This document shows positions 17,584 through 35,998 of a stretch of DNA of 36,434 nucleotides, one piece after another. The position numbers were made by a program, and so were the translations under genes. The stretch covers positions 1 to 36,434 of the forward strand of contig JACAEX010000039.1 in NCBI GenBank assembly GCA_013388635.1. Reading direction: 5' to 3'. Source of the stretch: Syntrophaceae bacterium (lineage in GTDB: Bacteria; Desulfobacterota; BSN033; UBA1163). Below the pieces are notes generated by a model. It was not told the DNA's origin. It ran no database searches and was given only the letters and a program-made list of their open reading frames with translations. The first letter of the stretch is position 1. Every line of letters starts with the position of its first letter.

Positions 17584-17665
17584 CAGGCGGCGCAGCCAAA
17601 TTGTTTAAATACAAACCACGAGCTTATTGGGGAATATGACCGGAGTGGTTTTGACGGAGGCGAAG

Positions 17666-19828
17666 ATGTATGAGTTCCGATATTCGAATATCGAGCGCGA
17701 GATGGAGGTATATGGTTATGATTCATTTGTAAAGAGCCACTGTCGGATGTGCCACGGCGGGTGCGGGGTCATCGTCTACGTGAAAGAGGGGAGGGTCGCA
17801 AAGATCGCTGGCGATCCGGATTGCCCGATTGCTCATGGGACCCTTTGCCCCAAAGGGCTTGCCTCAGCTCAGCTTGCCTATCATCCGGACAGGCTGACCT
17901 ATCCTGTCAAAAGGGTCGGTCCCAAGGCGAGTGGCCATTGGAAAAGGATCTCATGGGACGAAGCCCTGGACACGATTGCAGAGCGAATCCTCACCTATAA
18001 GGAGAGGTACGGAGCCGAATCGATCGTATTCGGCTACGGAACCGGCCGGGAAAACGAGGCTGTGATCTACCGCATCGCCAATTGTCTCGGCACGCCAAAC
18101 GTCCTCACAGCAGGCCATTTCTGCTATGGCCCCCGGATATCAACCGGCATCATCACCTGCGGCACCAATCCCATCGTCGACTACGAGAATTTCCCCAACT
18201 GCATCATTTTGTGGGGAAACAATCTGACGATCAGTAACCCTGACGAATACAAAGGAGAACCCTTCTCAGTCGCCCTCGACCATGGTGCGAAGCTCATCGT
18301 CGTCGATCCCAGGCTCACCCGGCCTGCAGCTCGGGCAGATATCTGGCTTCAGCTCAGACCCGGAACAGATGCTGCCCTTGGCCTCGGGATGCTCAATGTG
18401 ATCGTCAACGAAGGGCTTTATGACAGGGAGTTCGTTGAAAAATATACTTACGGTTGGGAGCCATTCGTCAAGAGAGTGAACGAGTACCCCCTTGACAGGG
18501 TTGAAGAGATAACCTGGGTGCCGAAGGAAAAGATCAGGGAGGCAGCCAGGCTCTTTGCAATGACCAAGCCTGCTGCGATTCAGTGGGGGGTGGCCATCGA
18601 ACAGCAGATCAATTGTGCAGACAATGATCGGCTTCTGATGTGCCTGATGGGAATAACCGGTAACATCGATGCGCCTGGCGGTCAGGTTCTCAACCGGGCG
18701 CCCAATGTCGTGAACGTGGGCCAATTTGGGGCCCATGGGATGCTTCCGAGGGACCAGTTTGCAAAGCGGCTGGGAGGGGAACGTTTCCGTCTTGCTTCAC
18801 GATTCGCCATACTTCAACCGAAATGCGTCTGGGATGCGATCCTAAAGGAAAAGCCATACCCGGTAAAGATGCTCTTTCTGATCAGCTCCAACCCTGTGAT
18901 CACCCGTGCCAATGCGAAAGAGGTCTACCGTGCCCTTGAGAAGGTTGAATTCATGGCCGTGGCTGACTTCTTTCTGACCCCTACGGCAGAACTTGCAGAC
19001 ATCGTTCTGCCTGCTGCAACCTGGCTTGAGATGGATTACATCGGCGACTTCTGGAAACGGCATGGTTATATCCTCCCCCGGCGAAAGGTCATCCAGGTGG
19101 GCGAGTGCCGATCAGACCATGAGATGCTCAACGACTTGGCACACCGGATCGGCCAGGGCCAGTACTGGTGGGAGAACTTTGAGCAGGCCCTCGATTACAT
19201 CCTTCATCCCATGGGCATCACCTGGAAGGATTTCAAGAAGATGAACTATATCAGGGCAGACGTAAAGTATTACAAGTACAAAGAGGGAGGTTTCTCCACG
19301 CCCACGAGGAAGTTTGAGCTCTATTCCACCATCCTCGAGAAGATGGGATACGATCCCCTTCCGCAGTACAGGGAGCCTCCTGAAAGCCCGGTCAGTGCAC
19401 CAGAACTCTACAAGGAGTATCCCTATATCCTGATCACCGGTGCCCGGCAGCCTGGGTTCTTCCACACGGAGAACAGGCAGATCGCCCGGCTCAGAGAGCT
19501 CCATCGAGACCCGATCGTTGAGATCCATCCTGACGCGGCGGTAAAGGAAGGCATTGAAGAGGGTGACTGGGTGATCATTGAATCCCCTCGGGGAAGGGTG
19601 AGGCAACGGGCGAAGCTCTGCCTGGGACGCGATCCCCGGATTGTGGCGGCTGAGCATGCGTGGTGGTTTCCGGAGAAGAGAGATCCAGGTCATGGCTGGG
19701 ATGAGTCAAATATCAATATCCTCACGGACAATGCCTTGGAGGGCTGCGACCCGGCAATGGGTGCCTCGAACATCAGGACACTCCTCTGCAGGATATATCC
19801 CGAAAAAAAAGTAGGAGGGCAGCGATGA
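17666..19828 (+). CDS. Molybdopterin oxidoreductase, DMSO reductase superfamily, cytoplasmic type
   Basis: This is a large catalytic subunit with an N-terminal [4Fe-4S] motif (C26-x2-C29-x3-C33-x27-C61) and the molybdopterin domains of the DMSO reductase/formate dehydrogenase superfamily. Cys153 in GHFCYGPR is the probable molybdenum or tungsten ligand. ATG 17666 is chosen because GGAGG lies five bases upstream; an upstream TTG at 17627 would add 13 unremarkable residues. There is no twin-arginine signal, so it should be cytoplasmic. With the ferredoxin subunit directly behind, it resembles soluble two-subunit enzymes such as transhydroxylases. The substrate cannot be named from sequence; thiosulfate, polysulfide, formate or a hydroxylation substrate are all possible. 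Confidence 0.85.
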   Translation: MYEFRYSNIEREMEVYGYDSFVKSHCRMCHGGCGVIVYVKEGRVAKIAGDPDCPIAHGTLCPKGLASAQLAYHPDRLTYPVKRVGPKASGHWKRISWDEALDTIAERILTYKERYGAESIVFGYGTGRENEAVIYRIANCLGTPNVLTAGHFCYGPRISTGIITCGTNPIVDYENFPNCIILWGNNLTISNPDEYKGEPFSVALDHGAKLIVVDPRLTRPAARADIWLQLRPGTDAALGLGMLNVIVNEGLYDREFVEKYTYGWEPFVKRVNEYPLDRVEEITWVPKEKIREAARLFAMTKPAAIQWGVAIEQQINCADNDRLLMCLMGITGNIDAPGGQVLNRAPNVVNVGQFGAHGMLPRDQFAKRLGGERFRLASRFAILQPKCVWDAILKEKPYPVKMLFLISSNPVITRANAKEVYRALEKVEFMAVADFFLTPTAELADIVLPAATWLEMDYIGDFWKRHGYILPRRKVIQVGECRSDHEMLNDLAHRIGQGQYWWENFEQALDYILHPMGITWKDFKKMNYIRADVKYYKYKEGGFSTPTRKFELYSTILEKMGYDPLPQYREPPESPVSAPELYKEYPYILITGARQPGFFHTENRQIARLRELHRDPIVEIHPDAAVKEGIEEGDWVIIESPRGRVRQRAKLCLGRDPRIVAAEHAWWFPEKRDPGHGWDESNINILTDNALEGCDPAMGASNIRTLLCRIYPEKKVGGQR

Positions 19829-20382
19829 GCAGGTATGCGCTGATTATCGAGGAGTTTGCCTGCTGGGGATGCAGGGCATGTGAAGTCGCCTGCAAGCAGG
19901 AGTATAATCCAGTCGATGCACCCGATGGGGTCAAGTACCTGTCTGTCTGGCCAGATGGTCCGAGGCTGATGAACGGGAAGCTCGATTTCATCTGGCGTGT
20001 CAATGTCTGCAGACACTGCGACGAACCCGCCTGTGCCAAAGTCTGTCCGGTGGAGGCCATAAGGAAAAGGAAGGACGGGATCGTCATCCTCGACCCAGAG
20101 AAATGCACCGGATGTCAACTCTGTATCGATGCATGCCCTTACCATGCGATTGGTTTTGACGAGAAGAAAAAGACCGCCGCCAAGTGCAATCTCTGCTATC
20201 ATCGGGTTGACAAGGGACTCTATCCAGCCTGTGCTGATAACATCTGCCTTGCCCATTGCATCTATTTTGGCGACCCTGCCGAGATCGAAGAGAAGATTCT
20301 GGAGAAGAGGAAGGTCAGAGGGGGTTGGGGAGAGATCATCCCCAAGAGCATAAAGATCTCGAGAGGGATAAGAGATGGATGA
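19825..20382 (+). CDS. Four-cluster ferredoxin subunit (DmsB/PhsB/HycB-like)
   Basis: This 185-residue electron-transfer subunit has 16 cysteines in four groups: CWGCRACEVAC, CRHCDEPACAKVCP, CTGCQLCIDACP and a last set of CNLC with CADNICLAHC. That pattern predicts four [4Fe-4S] clusters. Its ATG overlaps the stop of the molybdopterin subunit by four bases, so it is almost certainly that enzyme's partner. No NrfD-type or cytochrome b anchor follows, so electrons probably pass to or from a soluble carrier. Confidence 0.9.
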   Translation: MSRYALIIEEFACWGCRACEVACKQEYNPVDAPDGVKYLSVWPDGPRLMNGKLDFIWRVNVCRHCDEPACAKVCPVEAIRKRKDGIVILDPEKCTGCQLCIDACPYHAIGFDEKKKTAAKCNLCYHRVDKGLYPACADNICLAHCIYFGDPAEIEEKILEKRKVRGGWGEIIPKSIKISRGIRDG

Positions 20383-28921: not shown

Positions 28922-30151
28922 CTATTTGGTCTTTCTTCTGGCCAAGATCTCAAATGGAAGACCGCGGATAAAAGCGGCATCGGCACAGCGTCTCTGATCA
29001 AAGCCGGTGGTTTTGATGGATCGGATCTCTGGCGAGAAGAGGCTGGTCTTCGATTCCCGATGGACAATATCGATATTCCCTTTATAGAGTTTGATCTTAT
29101 ATCTTCCGTTGACCACCTTTTGAGAAGTTTCAATGAAGGCGTCAAGATCATATCTCAACGGATGGTAAGCCATCCCATGGTAGATCAGGTAAGCCCACTT
29201 CTGATCCACTCCTTTCTTGAACTGAATCTCATCTTTGGTAAGACAGAACTGCTCCAGGTCTCGATGGAGCTTCAGGATGATGGTTGCCGCAGGGGCCTCA
29301 TAGATCTCGCGGCTTTTGAGGTCCATGATTCCATCCTCGAATATATCGATCTTGCCGATCGAGTGTCTACCTCCGACGAGATTCAGTTCGGCAATAATCT
29401 CACCCAAGGGTTTCCCTCTTCCGTTCAGCTTAACGGGAACTCCCTTCTCAAACTCCAGAGCGAGGAATTCAGGTTCATCCGGCGCCTTCTCAGGTGGTCG
29501 ATACCACATCCAGATGTCATCGGGAAGGGGCTGGTTCAGATCGATTGCGCCGCTTGCAATGGATCGGCACCACATCGTTTTGTCATCCCCGCCCGTGATC
29601 ATCTCGGTCACCGGGATGCCCCAGGCCTTACAGAGTTGCTCTTCCTCCAATCGCGTCAAATCGAAATCCCTTACCGGAACGAGGATCTTCAGCTCAGGAG
29701 CAAACATCTTAAAGACATTATGCATGCGATATTGATCATTTCCCTTCCCACTCGATCCCTCAAGGATGGCATCACACCCCTGCGCGAGAGCAACTTCGGC
29801 CACCTTCCTCGCCACGATCTGTCTTGTCATTGAAGTGGAGACAGGATAGCCCAGATAGTCGGAATTGGCCTGGATGGCCCTTGCGATCCAGACTTCGGTG
29901 AATTCCTTCCGAAGGTCAAAGAAGAGGGGTTTGATCTTCAGTACCTTTGCCTTTCTTCGGCTCTCCTGGACCTCCTCCTCTCCCTGCCCAACGTCGATCG
30001 TGACGGGAACGATCTCCCTTGCTTTATACTTTCGCCTAAGCAATTCAATCGAGAGGGAGGAATCGAGTCCTCCAGAATAAGCCACAGCCACTTTGTTGAC
30101 TTTAGGTGTCTCGGTCTCCTCAATCTTTCTTAATATCCTCTTAAGGTCCAT
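28922..30151 (-). CDS. argG: Argininosuccinate synthase
   Basis: ArgG condenses citrulline and aspartate with ATP to argininosuccinate. The 409-residue protein has the N-type ATP-pyrophosphatase loop AYSGGLDSSLS near residue 24. It also has EGSSGKGNDQYRMHNVF, VTEMITGGDDKTMWCRSIASG and the late GRGKPLGEIIAELN. It heads the minus-strand run. A candidate promoter lies just upstream, and argH is the next gene, so this is the arginine end-pathway unit; argF and argC are not in view. Confidence 0.96.
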   Translation of the reverse strand: MDLKRILRKIEETETPKVNKVAVAYSGGLDSSLSIELLRRKYKAREIVPVTIDVGQGEEEVQESRRKAKVLKIKPLFFDLRKEFTEVWIARAIQANSDYLGYPVSTSMTRQIVARKVAEVALAQGCDAILEGSSGKGNDQYRMHNVFKMFAPELKILVPVRDFDLTRLEEEQLCKAWGIPVTEMITGGDDKTMWCRSIASGAIDLNQPLPDDIWMWYRPPEKAPDEPEFLALEFEKGVPVKLNGRGKPLGEIIAELNLVGGRHSIGKIDIFEDGIMDLKSREIYEAPAATIILKLHRDLEQFCLTKDEIQFKKGVDQKWAYLIYHGMAYHPLRYDLDAFIETSQKVVNGRYKIKLYKGNIDIVHRESKTSLFSPEIRSIKTTGFDQRRCADAAFIRGLPFEILARRKTK

Positions 30152-30184
30152 AAAGCTCCGCCTTTCTTTGGAATGTATGTAAAA

Positions 30185-30214
30185 ATGCTACCATAAATTG
30201 ACCATTTTAGGCAA
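30185..30214 (-). promoter_or_regulatory. Candidate argG promoter
   Basis: On the minus strand TTGCCT (plus coordinates 30209-30214) and TAGCAT (30185-30190) are 18 bp apart, about 34 bp before the argG ATG. The match is moderate. No clear ArgR box was recognised. Confidence 0.4.
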
Positions 30215-30319
30215 TCTTTTTTTTCACACCTTTCTGAGTGGGTAGGACATTCGAAACTATTACTCCTTCTGTTTTTGATCGTCCCTTGATGGGAAAATCA
30301 GTTGGGTTGCTAAGCAGAA

Positions 30320-30474
30320 AGAGGTTATGGAGACCTTTGAATAAGATTCTGAAGGATGTCCGAAATGGTTTTGTTTCAATTGAGCGGGCAGGAGAGCATT
30401 ACGGCGTGGTGATCGACCCGGTCACATTTCAGATGAATCGAGAAAAGACACAAAAAAGGAGAGGACCAGGTTAG
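30320..30474 (+). pseudogene. Frameshifted C-terminal remnant of hydantoinase B/oxoprolinase family
   Basis: The open frame ending at TAG 30472 encodes ILKDVRNGFVSIERAGEHYG followed by VVIDPVTF, the conserved C-terminal end of HyuB/acetone carboxylase alpha-type proteins, where one expects GYGDP followed by E-x-V-x-x-DV-x-x-G. The GYGD codons are found at 30323-30334 in a different frame; restoring one base after them would rejoin GYGDPLNKILKDV. So this is the last 50 or so codons of a gene of several hundred residues, broken by a 1-bp deletion. Nothing further upstream is recognisable, and it abuts the argG promoter region. Confidence 0.75.
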
Positions 30475-30511
30475 GCCCGTTTTCCTTAACCTCCCCAATC
30501 CCACCATCTTG

Positions 30512-30603
30512 CTAATCCAAACGCAATAAATCATTATGCCTCCTACCCCACAAGGTAGGGTAAGGGTGAGGTGATGTCAGCTTATTTAATGCGTTGGTAT
30601 TAG
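30512..30603. repeat. 92-bp palindromic element, possible bidirectional terminator
   Basis: CTAATCCAAACGCAATAAAT (30512-30531) and ATTTAATGCGTTGGTATTAG (30584-30603) are inverted with few mismatches. The inside contains CTACC/GGTAG and AAGGGTGAGG, similar to the GC-rich hairpins of the ribosomal block. It lies in the gap between the hyuB remnant and the end of the barrel gene. It could be a miniature mobile element or a transcription end. Confidence 0.6.
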
Positions 30604-30635
30604 TTCGGTCCGAAAGCTTCCCTTGCAGGTTTCGA

Positions 30636-32750
30636 TCAAAATTTATACCTTGCTCCCAGGAATACGACACTTGCGCTATAGGACGGATCTCTGTAGGCCC
30701 CTGTCAGATAGGCACCGTTTGTGCCTGAGGTGGCAGGGACAAACTGGTACCCATCGTATTGCGCATTATTATATTTGAATTTTTCATAGGCATAGCCTAC
30801 CGAGAAGGACAGTCTATTTGTAGCATTGTAAACAGCCTTAATCATATATAATTTTAATCTGTAATCATCCCAGAAGGAGATATCGATATTTTTCTGGTCT
30901 CTGCCTGCAGGAAGGGGATTGGTACCTAATAAATACGTAAAATCTGCAGATCCGTTCGATCTCACATAATCATGTTTGAGAGTCAATGTTAATTTTTTGG
31001 GAATGACATAAATATCTGTTCCAATCCCGTAATCAAATTCTCTGTCCTTCTCTGTTACCTCCCAATTGAAGATTGACGGAGTGGGTGGAAGGGAGGGATC
31101 AAAGCCAGAGGTAGCGTTAAATGGTAACTGTCTCTGAAATTGGTCGCCTTTAATCCTTTCATAGGCGAAGTAACCGAATAACCTTCCAAATTTTCCCACA
31201 ATATAGTCTGCATCGACACCAACCCCATCACTCCTCTCCTTTTCAAGCCCTAAGATGGTCTTCTTATAGTCTGTATCTTTATGCCTATACTCAATTACAA
31301 AATTAAGGTTTTCCACCGGAAAGAGATCCACCGATAGGGTATAGGTGTTCCGGTCCTGTTCCGCTGCGTCAAAGCGCCTGACCCATGTCTCGATGATTCG
31401 AGGATCACTTGATGCCACATCCGGTGCGCGAAATGTGGCATCTCTTTGTAATCTCTCATAGCCAATTCTGGCCAGCATAAACTCCCAGCCACTCCATCTC
31501 AATTCAGCAGAATAGAGGTTGTCTCTGTTTATTGGCAGATCCTCCCGTTCCCTTTTTGTCCTGATAAAATTGTAACCAGTGCTGAGATAAAGATGCGCCG
31601 GAAGCCTGAAGCCGAGTTCTAAGCCATAGGTATCCTTTTTGTAATCAAAGAGGGGGTTAACATAAGTGTTTGCACCGTCAATGGTGATGATTTCATCAGA
31701 CTTATTATCAGTCTTGTAATGTTTATAAAAAACCTTTCCATCTAAAAAGGAGATCGGGTTTGAACTCAGAACAAAGTTATAATTCTGCGTTTCAATTTTG
31801 CCTTTAAAATCGGGGTTGCTTAAAGTAATGGTCGTAATGCCAGTACTCACATAAGAGGAGGCTAAGTCTGCATCCGCTTTTGCCCTCGAAAAACCAAGAT
31901 TCATATTCAACTTACTTCTCACGGGGAGTCTCACAGCACCCTTGAAAGCGAGTTTATAATAATCATTATCAGGTGGAAGAGTGAGACTGTCCGTATTCGG
32001 TTGGACGCCCGAAGCAGGATTCCGGAAATTCAAATTGGTGTTACTATTCTTAAATTCACTATATAAGAAACCGAGGGATAAGAAGACAGGATTTTTGGAA
32101 TACCCTGCCTCCAGTTTTATATTGTCTGTCGTGTAATCAATGGGCTCAGGAAGTTCTATAGCGATCCCTCCCGGGGTGGTTCCTGCTGCTCCTAATGGAA
32201 ATATTCCGTCCCTCTTTTCCCTTAAGGCCGAAACGTCAAAGTAAAAGGGCCTCAGCATCTCAAAATTAAATCCGCCACCAAGACGCTTCCTTTCAATGGA
32301 ATAGTCAAATTCATCCCAAGTGGAGATATCTGAGCTCGGTGGATGAGTGGGGTAGGTCAGATTATCCTCGCCTACCCCCGAATAAAAGCTTCTTCCATGA
32401 AAAGTGAAGTTATGAGGGATTTGGTTGTATTCAAAGTAGGTCTTAAATTTTCCCCATATGCCCCCCTCCAATCTGTAAGACTGGGTGTCATATCCAATAT
32501 CGTCGGCCTTGAAATTCATAAGAAAATTTTCTGTATCGTAATCAGCGTGAATACTACCATAAGCACCAAAACCATCCCTTATGTCTCTATATTCGTTAAA
32601 TTTTGCCTTATTCCCTGCAATGTTACTGATTTTGCTATCAAGGGTGATGCTTCCTTCTAACCCTTCCATCAACCCTTTTTCCTCAGAAAAGGCATGCAAG
32701 AAAGAGAAAAGAACTGTAGCCACTGACAATAGGATTATCTTTGATCTCAT
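30636..32750 (-). CDS. MtrB/PioB-like outer-membrane beta-barrel
   Basis: From ATG 32750, which is preceded by a very strong AGGAGGTGA, the protein is 704 residues. It starts with a signal peptide (SKIILLSVATVLFSFLHAFS) and ends in the aromatic residue pattern YKF expected of a BAM-inserted barrel. Alternating strands such as FYFDVSALREKRDGIFPLG, NFVIEYRHKDTDYKKT and LSFSVGYAYEKFKYN are spread throughout, as in MtrB/PioB, the sheath that holds an MtrA-type decaheme cytochrome across the outer membrane. The partner cytochrome is 11 bp upstream. The N-terminal CxxC seen in Shewanella MtrB is absent. Confidence 0.85.
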   Translation of the reverse strand: MRSKIILLSVATVLFSFLHAFSEEKGLMEGLEGSITLDSKISNIAGNKAKFNEYRDIRDGFGAYGSIHADYDTENFLMNFKADDIGYDTQSYRLEGGIWGKFKTYFEYNQIPHNFTFHGRSFYSGVGEDNLTYPTHPPSSDISTWDEFDYSIERKRLGGGFNFEMLRPFYFDVSALREKRDGIFPLGAAGTTPGGIAIELPEPIDYTTDNIKLEAGYSKNPVFLSLGFLYSEFKNSNTNLNFRNPASGVQPNTDSLTLPPDNDYYKLAFKGAVRLPVRSKLNMNLGFSRAKADADLASSYVSTGITTITLSNPDFKGKIETQNYNFVLSSNPISFLDGKVFYKHYKTDNKSDEIITIDGANTYVNPLFDYKKDTYGLELGFRLPAHLYLSTGYNFIRTKREREDLPINRDNLYSAELRWSGWEFMLARIGYERLQRDATFRAPDVASSDPRIIETWVRRFDAAEQDRNTYTLSVDLFPVENLNFVIEYRHKDTDYKKTILGLEKERSDGVGVDADYIVGKFGRLFGYFAYERIKGDQFQRQLPFNATSGFDPSLPPTPSIFNWEVTEKDREFDYGIGTDIYVIPKKLTLTLKHDYVRSNGSADFTYLLGTNPLPAGRDQKNIDISFWDDYRLKLYMIKAVYNATNRLSFSVGYAYEKFKYNNAQYDGYQFVPATSGTNGAYLTGAYRDPSYSASVVFLGARYKF

Positions 32751-32761
32751 GGTCTCACCTC

Positions 32762-33685
32762 CTATCTCACAAATGTCTTTCCTCTTGCTGAAGGACCGTT
32801 GCTCCCGTGAATATTCGAATGGCAATTCAAGCAAGACCTTGCAAACATTCTGTTTTTACCGGCGGTTGCCGTGCCTTGAAAAGTTTCAAACCCTGTGTAG
32901 ATGGTCCCGGGATGGCCTCTCCAGTTGTGACAACTCTGACAGAGTTGCGGGACCTTATGGGTCAGAAGCTTGGAATGGTTGCTCCCATGGGTGACGTGAC
33001 AATTTAAACAGTTTTCTTCCACGGGAGGATGTGGCCACATGAAGGGCCCTCTTTTTTCTGAATGACACCTATAGCAGAGTTCGTTGACGGAATCTGCTTT
33101 TACTAACTTTGTGCTGAAAGCACCGTGAGGATTGTGGCAATCATTGCATCTTATCTTCCCTTCATTTATGGGATGACGCGACTGTTTATTCGCTTTAACT
33201 CTTATGTCGCGGTGACAGCTGTAGCACAAGTCGGGCTCCCTCGCTCTTAGATTCTTCTCTTTCACCGCAGCTGAATGGACAGAATGGCAATGATCGCAGG
33301 AAACCTGAACAGACCTATGTCTGCTCATATCCCAAAATACCAGCGGTTTTGATTCTCCATGACATGCAAGACACTTCGCTGTCTTTTCCTTGGCATCTAC
33401 CTTTTTCCCGAAGGCAAAGATGTCCACGCCCCTGCCTCCCCCTTTTTCAGCATGTTGAGCCCCAGGCCCGTGGCATGCCTCACAGCCTTCACGGTTCATA
33501 GGGCTTCCGGAAATGGCTTTCTTGCCATGGACGGATTTCAGAAACCCTTTATAGGTATCCTCATGGCACCCCTTGCAGCTTTCGGTACCCACGTAATCCG
33601 TCCCTCCTTTTGCACCTTTCTGCCCAAAGGGGATTAGAATGGAAAGAAAAAAGACCGACAAAAATATCAGAGCTCTCTTTCCCAT
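32762..33685 (-). CDS. DmsE/MtrA-type decaheme c-type cytochrome
   Basis: The 307-residue protein has an N-terminal signal peptide (RALIFLSVFFLSILIPFG) and ten CxxCH heme sites: CKGCH, CEACH, CLACH, CDHCH, CYSCH, CNDCH, CYRCH, CLNCH, CQSCH and CLNCH. Length, heme count and the SRHPINEG and HVTHGSNH spacing regions match the MtrA/DmsE family, which carries electrons through an MtrB barrel. The barrel gene follows by 11 bp, so the two form an outer-membrane electron conduit. No outer-surface cytochrome (MtrC/OmcA) or inner-membrane quinol dehydrogenase (CymA) is in the window. Confidence 0.93.
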   Translation of the reverse strand: MGKRALIFLSVFFLSILIPFGQKGAKGGTDYVGTESCKGCHEDTYKGFLKSVHGKKAISGSPMNREGCEACHGPGAQHAEKGGGRGVDIFAFGKKVDAKEKTAKCLACHGESKPLVFWDMSRHRSVQVSCDHCHSVHSAAVKEKNLRAREPDLCYSCHRDIRVKANKQSRHPINEGKIRCNDCHNPHGAFSTKLVKADSVNELCYRCHSEKRGPFMWPHPPVEENCLNCHVTHGSNHSKLLTHKVPQLCQSCHNWRGHPGTIYTGFETFQGTATAGKNRMFARSCLNCHSNIHGSNGPSARGKTFVR

Positions 33686-33807
33686 AATTTGACCTACCCC
33701 CTTTCCTGTTGAAACGTTTGAGATTTTCCCGCCCTATGTCCCATTTCGATGGAGGGAAAGAATTTGAGATCTAATAAAAAACCTGAGAATCCTTAGCTCC
33801 AAAAGAC

Positions 33808-33838
33808 AAAAGGAGGGATCAGAAAAATCCCCCCTTTT
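33808..33838. terminator. Hairpin in the leader of the decaheme operon
   Basis: AAAAGGAGGGAT (33808-33819) and ATCCCCCCTTTT (33827-33838) form a 12-bp stem with one A-C mismatch and a 7-nt loop. On the minus strand the 3' side ends TCCTTTTGTCTTTT, resembling an intrinsic terminator. It lies between the promoter at 33852-33880 and the cytochrome start at 33685, so it may attenuate that operon. On the plus strand it is also followed by a T-rich run. Confidence 0.55.
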
Positions 33839-33851
33839 AAAATTTTTCGTT

Positions 33852-33880
33852 TTTTTAACATGCCGATTTCGGATTGTCAA
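33852..33880 (-). promoter_or_regulatory. Sigma-70 promoter of the decaheme-barrel operon
   Basis: On the minus strand TTGACA (plus coordinates 33875-33880) is followed after 17 bp by TAAAAA (33852-33857), about 165 bp before the cytochrome start codon. The -35 is perfect; the -10 keeps the first TA and the fifth A of the consensus. The 33686-33993 gap is otherwise occupied by this promoter and the hairpin described at 33808-33838. Confidence 0.55.
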
Positions 33881-33993
33881 GATGAAAAAATTCACAAGAA
33901 AATATTTGCTGCGAATATACGCCTCTATATCAAAGAATGCTCAGACAGTAAATCGGGTGAACTATGTATTTTTTGATGAAAAAGGCTGTATTC

Positions 33994-35031
33994 TTAATTG
34001 GGGAGGAAGGACGGGTTATACCAGCAGTGGGGATCTTCGGCAAGGTACTCGCCGGTCAGAGCGAAGGCCAGACTTCGGCAACCTCGACAATTTTTGATTT
34101 CACATCTTCCACATTTCCCTTTAAGGTTTTCCTTTATCCGTAATTTCTCCAGTATCTCCGATTCCTCCCAGATCTGTTTCAAGGAATTATGTAACAGATT
34201 CCCTATGGGAATGGGAAATCTTCGGCAGGGAAAAACGTTACCATCTGGCATCACACAAAGTCCGTCTCTTCCGACGACACAGGGGGCGCCCAAGAGTTCT
34301 GGTCCCTCTCCTTGGAAACTTATCTGAAAGGCTTGATAAGGGAACAAAGCATTTTCTTCATCAATGGCAAATAGATCTGAGAGTGTTTTGATCAGCTCTT
34401 TCCAATCTTCTCCACTCAACACCTCCTTCATTCTTTCCCTTCCTCTACCCCATGGAATGAAACGTTCAATGATAAATCCATTGACACCCAACTCCTTAGA
34501 GAGGTTAAAGAAGGAAGAAAGACTCTTTAAGTTCCTTTTCATGACTGTAAACATGAGGATAATCTCAAAGGAATCCTTACCTTTAAACAAAGAGAGATTC
34601 TGAATCACCTTCTCAAACGTCTTCTCCTGGCGAATGGAATCATTGGTCTCTGCATCGGCTCCATCTAAAGAGATTTTGATCTTCTTCAATTTAGAAAAGG
34701 AAGAAAGTTTCTCGACCCACTCCCGATCAAAGAAAAGACCATTGGTAATTATCCCAAGTTCTTCAATGAGAGGACTCCGATCAAGATAATTTAGGAGTGA
34801 AAATAGTTCGGGTTTTAGCAGAGGCTCTCCGCCGGTGAGATGGATGCAGGCTTTTTTGTCCCATTCCTGCAGAGTGGCAAGAACGTTATCAAAGATCTTT
34901 TTAAGCCCAGACCAATCTAAATCTTTGTCCTTCGAGAAATCATCTTGATAACAGTGCTGACAACGAAGGTTACAATAGTTTGTGATATGCCATTGAATAT
35001 AAAATTGATCTTTCTTAGGTATAGATCCCAT
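33994..35031 (-). CDS. Radical SAM protein with SPASM domain
   Basis: This 345-residue enzyme has the radical SAM cluster motif NYCNLRCQHCYQ (CxxxCxxC) near residue 20 and the GGEP motif as HLTGGEPLLKPELF near residue 65. A C-terminal SPASM-like auxiliary cluster region contains APCVVGRDGLCVMPDGNVFPCRRFPIPIGN, CGRCEIKNCRGC and a late DPHC. SPASM enzymes modify peptides (RiPPs, PqqE, anSME) or act in heme metabolism. No peptide precursor, transporter or protease is adjacent, so it is either an orphan or acts on one of the neighbouring proteins. The start has only a weak ribosome binding site and AT-rich DNA upstream. Confidence 0.85.
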   Translation of the reverse strand: MGSIPKKDQFYIQWHITNYCNLRCQHCYQDDFSKDKDLDWSGLKKIFDNVLATLQEWDKKACIHLTGGEPLLKPELFSLLNYLDRSPLIEELGIITNGLFFDREWVEKLSSFSKLKKIKISLDGADAETNDSIRQEKTFEKVIQNLSLFKGKDSFEIILMFTVMKRNLKSLSSFFNLSKELGVNGFIIERFIPWGRGRERMKEVLSGEDWKELIKTLSDLFAIDEENALFPYQAFQISFQGEGPELLGAPCVVGRDGLCVMPDGNVFPCRRFPIPIGNLLHNSLKQIWEESEILEKLRIKENLKGKCGRCEIKNCRGCRSLAFALTGEYLAEDPHCWYNPSFLPN

Positions 35032-35560: not shown

Positions 35561-35998
35561 ATGAAAAGCAAAATGGTTTTTTTGATTGTCGTATCTCTAT
35601 TTTTTCTTTTCATTCCAACTGCACAGGCCCTTACAGATGAGGAAATCATGAGGGCGACCCATATCATCAACCTTGAGGCTCAGCCCATGTGGTTTAGGCC
35701 GGGACAGCCCATCGATTTTATCGCATCAATAAGATACGACGGTGGGACTCAGGATGGCTTCGACATAGGTGTCTTCCATGAGGGAAGGGTCGTAGGATGG
35801 GAAATGAACAAGAGGCTCAACCGGGGCATGAACACCTTTAAACTTCACGATAGAGATTTCAGAGGTGATCCAGGTGGATATATTGTAAAAGTTAGATTTA
35901 AGGGCAAAATCTTTACACAGAAGAGATTTGCCACAAGGACGCATTGTCCTGTGGTCTTTTTTACGATAAACCCGACAGCGCCTCCACCAAAACCTTAA
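35561..35998 (+). CDS. Small secreted protein of unknown function
   Basis: The 145-residue protein begins with a clear signal peptide (KSKMVFLIVVSLFFLFIPTAQA, cleavage after the AQA). The mature part is about 120 residues and looks all-beta: FRPGQPIDFIASIRYDGG, FDIGVFHEGRVVGWEM and GDPGGYIVKVRFKGKIFTQKRFATR. It ends in a proline-rich tail. A single cysteine lies near the end. I do not recognise the family; an immunoglobulin-like or adhesin-type fold is possible. It has a strong AAAAGGAGGT before ATG 35561, a terminator-like hairpin after it, and no same-strand partner. Confidence 0.7.
   Translation: MKSKMVFLIVVSLFFLFIPTAQALTDEEIMRATHIINLEAQPMWFRPGQPIDFIASIRYDGGTQDGFDIGVFHEGRVVGWEMNKRLNRGMNTFKLHDRDFRGDPGGYIVKVRFKGKIFTQKRFATRTHCPVVFFTINPTAPPPKP

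Follow-up and report, generated by a model that had tools for sequence, protein, structure and literature searches.

The closest described counterparts of the gene pair reported here are MtrAB of Shewanella, a decaheme cytochrome and a 26-strand outer-membrane barrel with mtrA directly 5′ of mtrB, and the PioAB and MtoAB systems of Rhodopseudomonas and Sideroxydans, in which the MtrAB core occurs without MtrC. According to three papers, MtrAB is the core module of Mtr systems and mtrCAB is mobile (PMC8805035), MtrB has 26 antiparallel strands and a small helix between the first two of them that acts as a cap (PMC7198977), and Mtr genes occur in >40 Desulfobacterota species including Desulfuromonas acetexigens, with mtrC sometimes away from mtrAB (PMC12133095). 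A further paper (PMC13343851) reports that no such Mtr homologues were found in Desulfatiglandales metagenome-assembled genomes (MAGs). MtrAB without MtrC poses the question of whether a bare wire is able to exchange electrons with solids or cells, and which way. Here we examine such a pair in a Syntrophaceae bacterium (contig JACAEX010000039.1 of assembly GCA_013388635.1). The window that we analysed is the entire contig (C91) of 36,434 bases, and the host assembly comprises 3.42 Mb in 106 contigs at 95.4% completeness. We consider the pair almost certain to be an MtrAB porin-cytochrome conduit, and it is a further example of the described system that fits PMC8805035 and PMC12133095. In a limited literature search we found no mention of mtrAB in the host's family.

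The decaheme cytochrome and its barrel

The pair comprises the following features of the window:

32762..33685, minus strand: mtrA-like gene for an exported decaheme c-type cytochrome of 307 amino acids (aa); ten CxxCH motifs, TIGR03508, phmmer match to 6r2q_A
32819..33577, minus strand: span of the ten CxxCH heme-attachment motifs, from a motif scan
32751..32763, minus strand: mtrA-mtrB junction, with AGGAGG overlapping the mtrA stop and a spacer to the mtrB ATG, from the sequence
30636..32750, minus strand: mtrB-like gene for a 26-strand outer-membrane beta-barrel of 704 aa; TIGR03509, PF11854, AlphaFold2 model

The cytochrome begins with a hydrophobic, signal-like stretch (judged by eye) and has CxxCH motifs at residues 37, 68, 105, 130, 154, 180, 204, 226, 249 and 285. 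Elsewhere in the window, a six-frame scan finds CxxCH just three times, always away from the cytochrome gene, so ten in one open reading frame (ORF) are not due to chance. The protein scores 262.7 bits on TIGR03508, the model of the DmsE/MtrA family (curated cut-off 192.2), and phmmer against the PDB returns 6r2q_A at E 2.8e-64 with the next match at 1.4e-8; this entry is titled 'Structure of the Mtr complex', and the PDB sequence file labels its chain A with an unrelated molecule name. In an alignment of 44 MtrA rows all ten CxxCH motifs are invariant, and ten extra histidines (53, 78, 123, 137, 171, 187, 219, 233, 258 and 293) are invariant or at least 90% conserved. The ten CxxCH motifs also align with those of 6r2q_A, the Shewanella baltica protein, and every one of the ten extra histidines aligns with a histidine there; these histidines are candidate distal ligands in the pattern expected for bis-His hemes.

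The barrel scores 290 bits on PF11854 (cut-off 23) and, narrowly over its cut-off of 240.05, 248.3 bits on TIGR03509; by sequence, 6r2q_B is its sole PDB match at E values up to 1. An AlphaFold2 model with a mean predicted local distance difference test score (pLDDT) of 89.5 has 26 long strands by our own count and a short helix at residues 48-51 (H48-51) between strands 1 and 2. The model superposes on Shewanella MtrB (6r2q_B) with Z 27.1 and a root-mean-square deviation (rmsd) of 2.5 Å over 626 residues, and the next chain reaches Z 14.3. The two proteins differ in that their identity is only ~21% and in that the host barrel lacks cysteine. An N-terminal CxxC-type motif marks the Shewanella-type subset of MtrB proteins; reading the 704-aa sequence we found no cysteine, and the barrel is thus without this motif. 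Compared with Geobacter GSU2203/GSU2204, the host decaheme is alike in scoring 248.8 bits on the GSU2203 model, but this is below the cut-off of 325, and the barrel reaches 38.7 against 350 on the GSU2204 model.

The two ORFs are separated by 11 bases between the mtrA stop and the mtrB ATG (32750), and the Shine-Dalgarno-like AGGAGG overlaps the stop codon of the cytochrome gene; mtrA and mtrB are probably co-translated. The barrel ORF stops at 30636, and a 732-aa ORF call extends this frame 5′ to a TTG start. A preliminary description of this DNA had noted ten CxxCH sites and a 704-residue barrel in tandem, and we confirm both, with the coordinates 30636-33685 and the barrel length exact. The pair is under purifying selection, with pN of 0.16-0.23 versus pS of 0.71-0.77.

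Relatives and distribution of the pair

Named genomes were scanned with the MtrA alignment, and the best 80 of 576 confirmed stretches were kept (below, loci are labelled L, genomes G and contigs of the host assembly C). An MtrB-profile ORF adjoins MtrA in 79 of the 80 loci, the exception being L144, which ends 477 bases past the cytochrome; among the same 80 the nearest named relative is L070, from a Thermodesulfobacteriota MAG. We built quick-search trees from 91 MtrA rows (best MtrA per locus; L066, the same as L070, and rows with X left out) and 85 MtrB rows (six short MtrB rows and L066 dropped), neither of which has PioA or PioB among its rows. Host MtrA and host MtrB fall in the same 26-row clade, with checked set identity and SH-aLRT support of 99 and 100. 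The clade consists mostly of Thermodesulfobacteriota, Nitrospirota and 'Deltaproteobacteria' MAGs and is apart from the Sideroxydans and Thiocapsa rows (host MtrA is in a clade distinct from the Sideroxydans row L131) and from the Shewanella rows, whose clade is separate from the host pair in both trees. Judged by sequence and model, the locus encodes a decaheme MtrA-family cytochrome and a 26-strand MtrB-type barrel as a pair that is inherited together. The MtrA/MtrB-type module proposed in the preliminary description is borne out by the hidden Markov model scores, the matches to chains A and B of 6r2q, the 26-strand model and the concordant trees, and the barrel lies within the MtrB/PioB family rather than outside it.

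A further ORF of at least 450 aa with at least seven CxxCH occurs at none of the 21 named clade loci, only 6 of which have at least 3 kb on both sides. Of the 80 named loci overall, 41 have 3 kb on each side, and such an ORF is present in 11 of those. In one Nitrospirota MAG, two pairs of mtrAB stand in tandem (L091:4726-11649). In Nitrospirota and Myxococcota MAGs, a secreted FGE-sulfatase (SUMF1-like) protein is encoded directly upstream of mtrA (L081:1722-2564, L085:465-1295 and L091:3793-4635; Pfam was run on the L081 copy).

Two flanking genes serve as context markers for comparing the site among relatives:

28922..30151, minus strand: argG, argininosuccinate synthase-like (named by eye), downstream flank outside the conduit
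33994..35031, minus strand: radical SAM/SPASM protein (PF04055, PF13186), upstream flank

Within the family mtrAB is patchy, being found in 6 of 17 genomes (our own and 5 of the 16 others), each time with the decaheme gene directly 5′ of the barrel gene. The order argH-argG-mtrB-mtrA-radical SAM is shared with G003, where a divergent WG-repeat gene additionally lies between mtrA and the radical SAM gene. The argG-radical SAM gap (window 28922-35031; L067, L195, L196) holds mtrAB here and in G003 and is empty in G007 and G011, the latter carrying mtrAB on another contig. No radical SAM match was found in the stretch examined near argG in G009, and the contig of G005 ends early. With 19 genomes searched, argG orthologues are 85-88% identical in G003, G005, G007, G009 and G011. 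Host MtrB is 61% identical to that of G008 and 66% to that of G011, compared with 44% for G003 at the same genomic place, while argG is 86% identical in both G011 and G003. Because some sites are empty and the same-site pair of G003 is less alike than the pairs of G008 and G011, gain and loss, or replacement, of mtrAB within the family is likely.

Patchy presence in 6 of 17 genomes and empty sites would also be expected of a relic, or of a porin-cytochrome pair that is non-respiratory and takes no part in electron exchange. We give this very little credence, as both frames are intact, the ten heme motifs are kept, pN is far below pS, and mtrA and mtrB are paired in every family genome that carries them.

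Candidate partners on either side of the outer membrane

The preliminary description had found no surface cytochrome near mtrAB and had proposed a genome search for MtrC and OmcA. The first statement holds for a neighbourhood that is restricted on one side, because the window is the whole contig and only 2,749 bases lie 5′ of the cytochrome gene, and the genome-wide search likewise returned no OmcA/MtrC-family protein over cut-off. With TIGR03507, none of 23 genomes (our own and 22 relatives) has a match over cut-off, and the best score in our own is 18.1 against 209.3 bits. The same set, which leaves out G015 and the mtrAB carrier G016, was used in the searches for core cytochromes, WG-repeat proteins and secreted proteins. 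The host therefore differs from Shewanella MtrCAB in having no MtrC/OmcA-family match in its genome. The Desulfobacterota Mtr lineage, compared by its published description (PMC12133095), is alike in phylum, as judged from the nearest named MAG, and in having mtrAB together with mtrC not necessarily adjacent; it is unlike in having mtrC in the genome, whereas none exceeds the cut-off here. Unlike in MtoAB and PioAB, no cymA/imoA-like or mtoD-like cytochrome gene adjoins mtrAB in a CxxCH scan of the window, which offers 2.7 kb on one side.

Three proteins were considered as outer partners and set aside. A small secreted protein of 145 aa (35561-35998), suggested earlier as a partner, has no Pfam or NCBIfam match and is found in 0 of 22 relatives, including four other mtrAB carriers, and it does not recur beside mtrAB; it is an unlikely partner. 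A WG-repeat protein (PF14903) with a lipobox, recognised by eye, directly follows mtrB in L073:6677-7672 and L076:3887-4855, and in G003 a WG-repeat protein (L067:17152-18354) lies divergently beside mtrA. As a general partner it was set aside and it is not the partner here, as it was not found in the host, and among the 4 of 23 genomes that have it G003 alone is known to carry mtrAB. A 611-aa octaheme protein on C48 was considered as a hidden surface cytochrome and set aside: it matches an octaheme model weakly (41 vs 375 bits) and, whether or not mtrAB is present, occurs in all 15 of the family genomes searched, with no link to mtrAB shown. In three lineages we also observe secreted proteins with FG-GAP or fibronectin repeats and a single CxxCH near the N-terminus encoded near mtrAB (L068:11727-13607; L069:15214-16422, in L069/L082; L075:1117-2595).

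The inner side is richer. The conduit had been described as without partners, which stands for OmcA/MtrC-family proteins over cut-off and fails for cytochromes in general: besides MtrA, 16 ORFs with at least two CxxCH were found in the host genome by two paired-CxxCH pattern searches and reading of the loci (control 0 in both searches), where the patterns require two motifs at a spacing of 24-85 bases and do not detect CxxxCH or lone motifs. An inner-membrane quinol oxidase is absent near mtrAB, as first described, and candidates for one lie on other contigs. Among the 16 ORFs are a 663-aa membrane protein on C32 that combines nine CxxCH with a cytochrome b domain (PF01292) and an 11-heme protein with a cytochrome b on C51. 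C44 carries a 6-heme and 7-heme/cytochrome b pair, and a locus for NrfC, NrfD and a molybdoenzyme on C32 includes cytochromes with 6 and 16 hemes. The nine-heme c/b make-up of the 663-aa protein is presumably that of CbcL, a likeness of make-up only. This protein is matched in 15 of 15 family genomes searched, so it is core and mtrAB is not. The genes mtrH/mtoC, which PMC6295460 calls CbcL homologues, are reported there to cluster with mtrAB/mtoAB in seven species. C32 also encodes what looks by eye like a UshA-like multiheme (seleno)protein with four CxxCH in its C-terminal part (L058:6649-7902).

The host has in addition a c3-like tetraheme cytochrome on C19 that shares 45% identity over 100 residues with a tetraheme encoded beside mtrAB in L148 and 35% with that in L137. 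Three Syntrophaceae loci that fall in this clade (L077-L079) have genes for a tetraheme cytochrome, an Fe-S protein and NrfD after mtrB. By association, these genes suggest a route from the quinone pool through a small cytochrome to MtrA. The Fe-S frame of L077 is hidden under an overlapping ORF in the greedy list, and in L079 the tetraheme and Fe-S proteins form one ORF across masked bases. The Fe-S protein at these loci (L077:3225-5723, L078:13065-15505, L079:6214-8510) is of four-cluster type, and in L077 and L079 NrfD is followed by a monoheme cytochrome and two ORFs that resemble cytochrome c biogenesis proteins by eye; the whole arrangement looks like a complete electron-exit operon. DsrJ passes its model (NF038038, 152.2 bits vs a cut-off of 100), so we take the host to have a DsrMKJOP-type complex.

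The NCBIfam model of the cytochrome carries the DmsE name, and a molybdopterin oxidoreductase with an Fe-S protein is encoded at 17627-20382 of the window; the conduit could on these grounds be DmsEF-like, with its electrons going to a reductase outside the cell, for instance a surface molybdoenzyme, instead of to a mineral or another cell. We think this improbable. The enzyme at 17627-20382 was rejected as a DmsA, having no export signal by eye and scoring far under the DmsA cut-off (232.9 vs 777.7), and it lies ~10 kb off on the opposite strand. No adjacent exported DmsA/DmsB pair was found beside mtrAB in the window, with 2.7 kb available on one side, and no molybdoenzyme recurs beside mtrAB in the clade. 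The C32 molybdoenzyme, which looks exported by eye, is encoded alongside NrfD and multiheme cytochromes and not with a barrel. As a separate observation, the oxidoreductase at 17627-20382 and its Fe-S subunit reach none of the NCBIfam cut-offs shown.

Direction of electron flow

With moderate confidence, we read the pair as an MtrAB conduit whose outward flow serves as an optional respiratory outlet. By analogy with the solved S. baltica MtrAB, the cytochrome would be threaded through the barrel with heme 1 toward the periplasm and heme 10 at the cell surface, giving an insulated electron wire across the outer membrane. Menaquinol may be oxidised at the inner membrane by a cytochrome b/multiheme or NrfD-type module encoded on other contigs, a small periplasmic cytochrome (the C19 c3-like tetraheme being the best candidate) would ferry the electrons, and MtrA would pass them outward. 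Since no MtrC-family protein was found, electrons leaving the outer end would reach a mineral, a partner cell or a soluble acceptor either directly or via a surface protein other than MtrC.

Electrons could instead run inward: a donor outside the cell, be it Fe(II), a mineral, a cathode or another organism as partner, would supply them, and MtrAB would bring them to the periplasm as proposed for PioAB and MtoAB. This is a smaller though appreciable likelihood. The MtrAB homologues PioAB and MtoAB serve, or are proposed to serve, in iron oxidation, MtoAB lacks MtrC as the host does, and MtoA was detected on magnetite in Sideroxydans, according to PMC8805035 and PMC12016527. Imported electrons could also feed sulfate reduction through the DsrMKJOP-type locus and c3 cytochromes. 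In the tree, host MtrA does not group with the Sideroxydans and Thiocapsa rows, which speaks against inward flow, an argument tempered by the statement in PMC8805035 that MtoA and PioA form no function-specific clade. Syntrophaceae mtrAB is also linked to the NrfD quinone module, though such a module can run either way. We judge outward flow somewhat likelier than inward because of this linkage and the presence of quinol-linked cytochromes, and the preference is weak because the characterised MtrC-less systems run inward.

Several points weigh against reading the pair as an outward conduit. The data come from an incomplete assembly (95.4%, 106 contigs) in which mtrA is 2.7 kb off a contig end, and the barrel exceeds the TIGR03509 cut-off by 8 bits only. 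The model of MtrA without hemes has a mean pLDDT of 68.2, with residues 236-307 below 50; a fold search with this model gave 6r2q_A as the best PDB match, at low confidence (E 2.6e-11, TM 0.54/0.61, rmsd 7.5). The core cytochromes occur in family genomes both with and without mtrAB and therefore fail to single out a partner. Finally, the MtrAB-only systems studied, PioAB and MtoAB, are tied to electron uptake (PMC8805035, PMC12016527).

A broader proposal, which we offer tentatively and consider rather unlikely in full, is that anaerobic Thermodesulfobacteriota and Nitrospirota possess an MtrC-less MtrAB clade with no multiheme surface cytochrome at the outer end. Electrons would pass between heme 10 and a mineral or partner cell either directly or by way of a non-heme surface lipoprotein; in some members this would be the WG-repeat lipoprotein whose gene immediately follows mtrB. 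The inner end would be fed by the NrfD/c3 network of sulfate-type respiration, and the wire would be a plug-in module that close relatives have gained and lost.

A clade that lacks a linked MtrC where flanks are seen, in anaerobes that are likely syntrophic or sulfur-respiring, offers natural test cases for MtrAB without MtrC. Together, the patchy occurrence of mtrAB and the unchanged core of inner-membrane cytochromes suggest that a two-gene cassette can bring in extracellular electron exchange.

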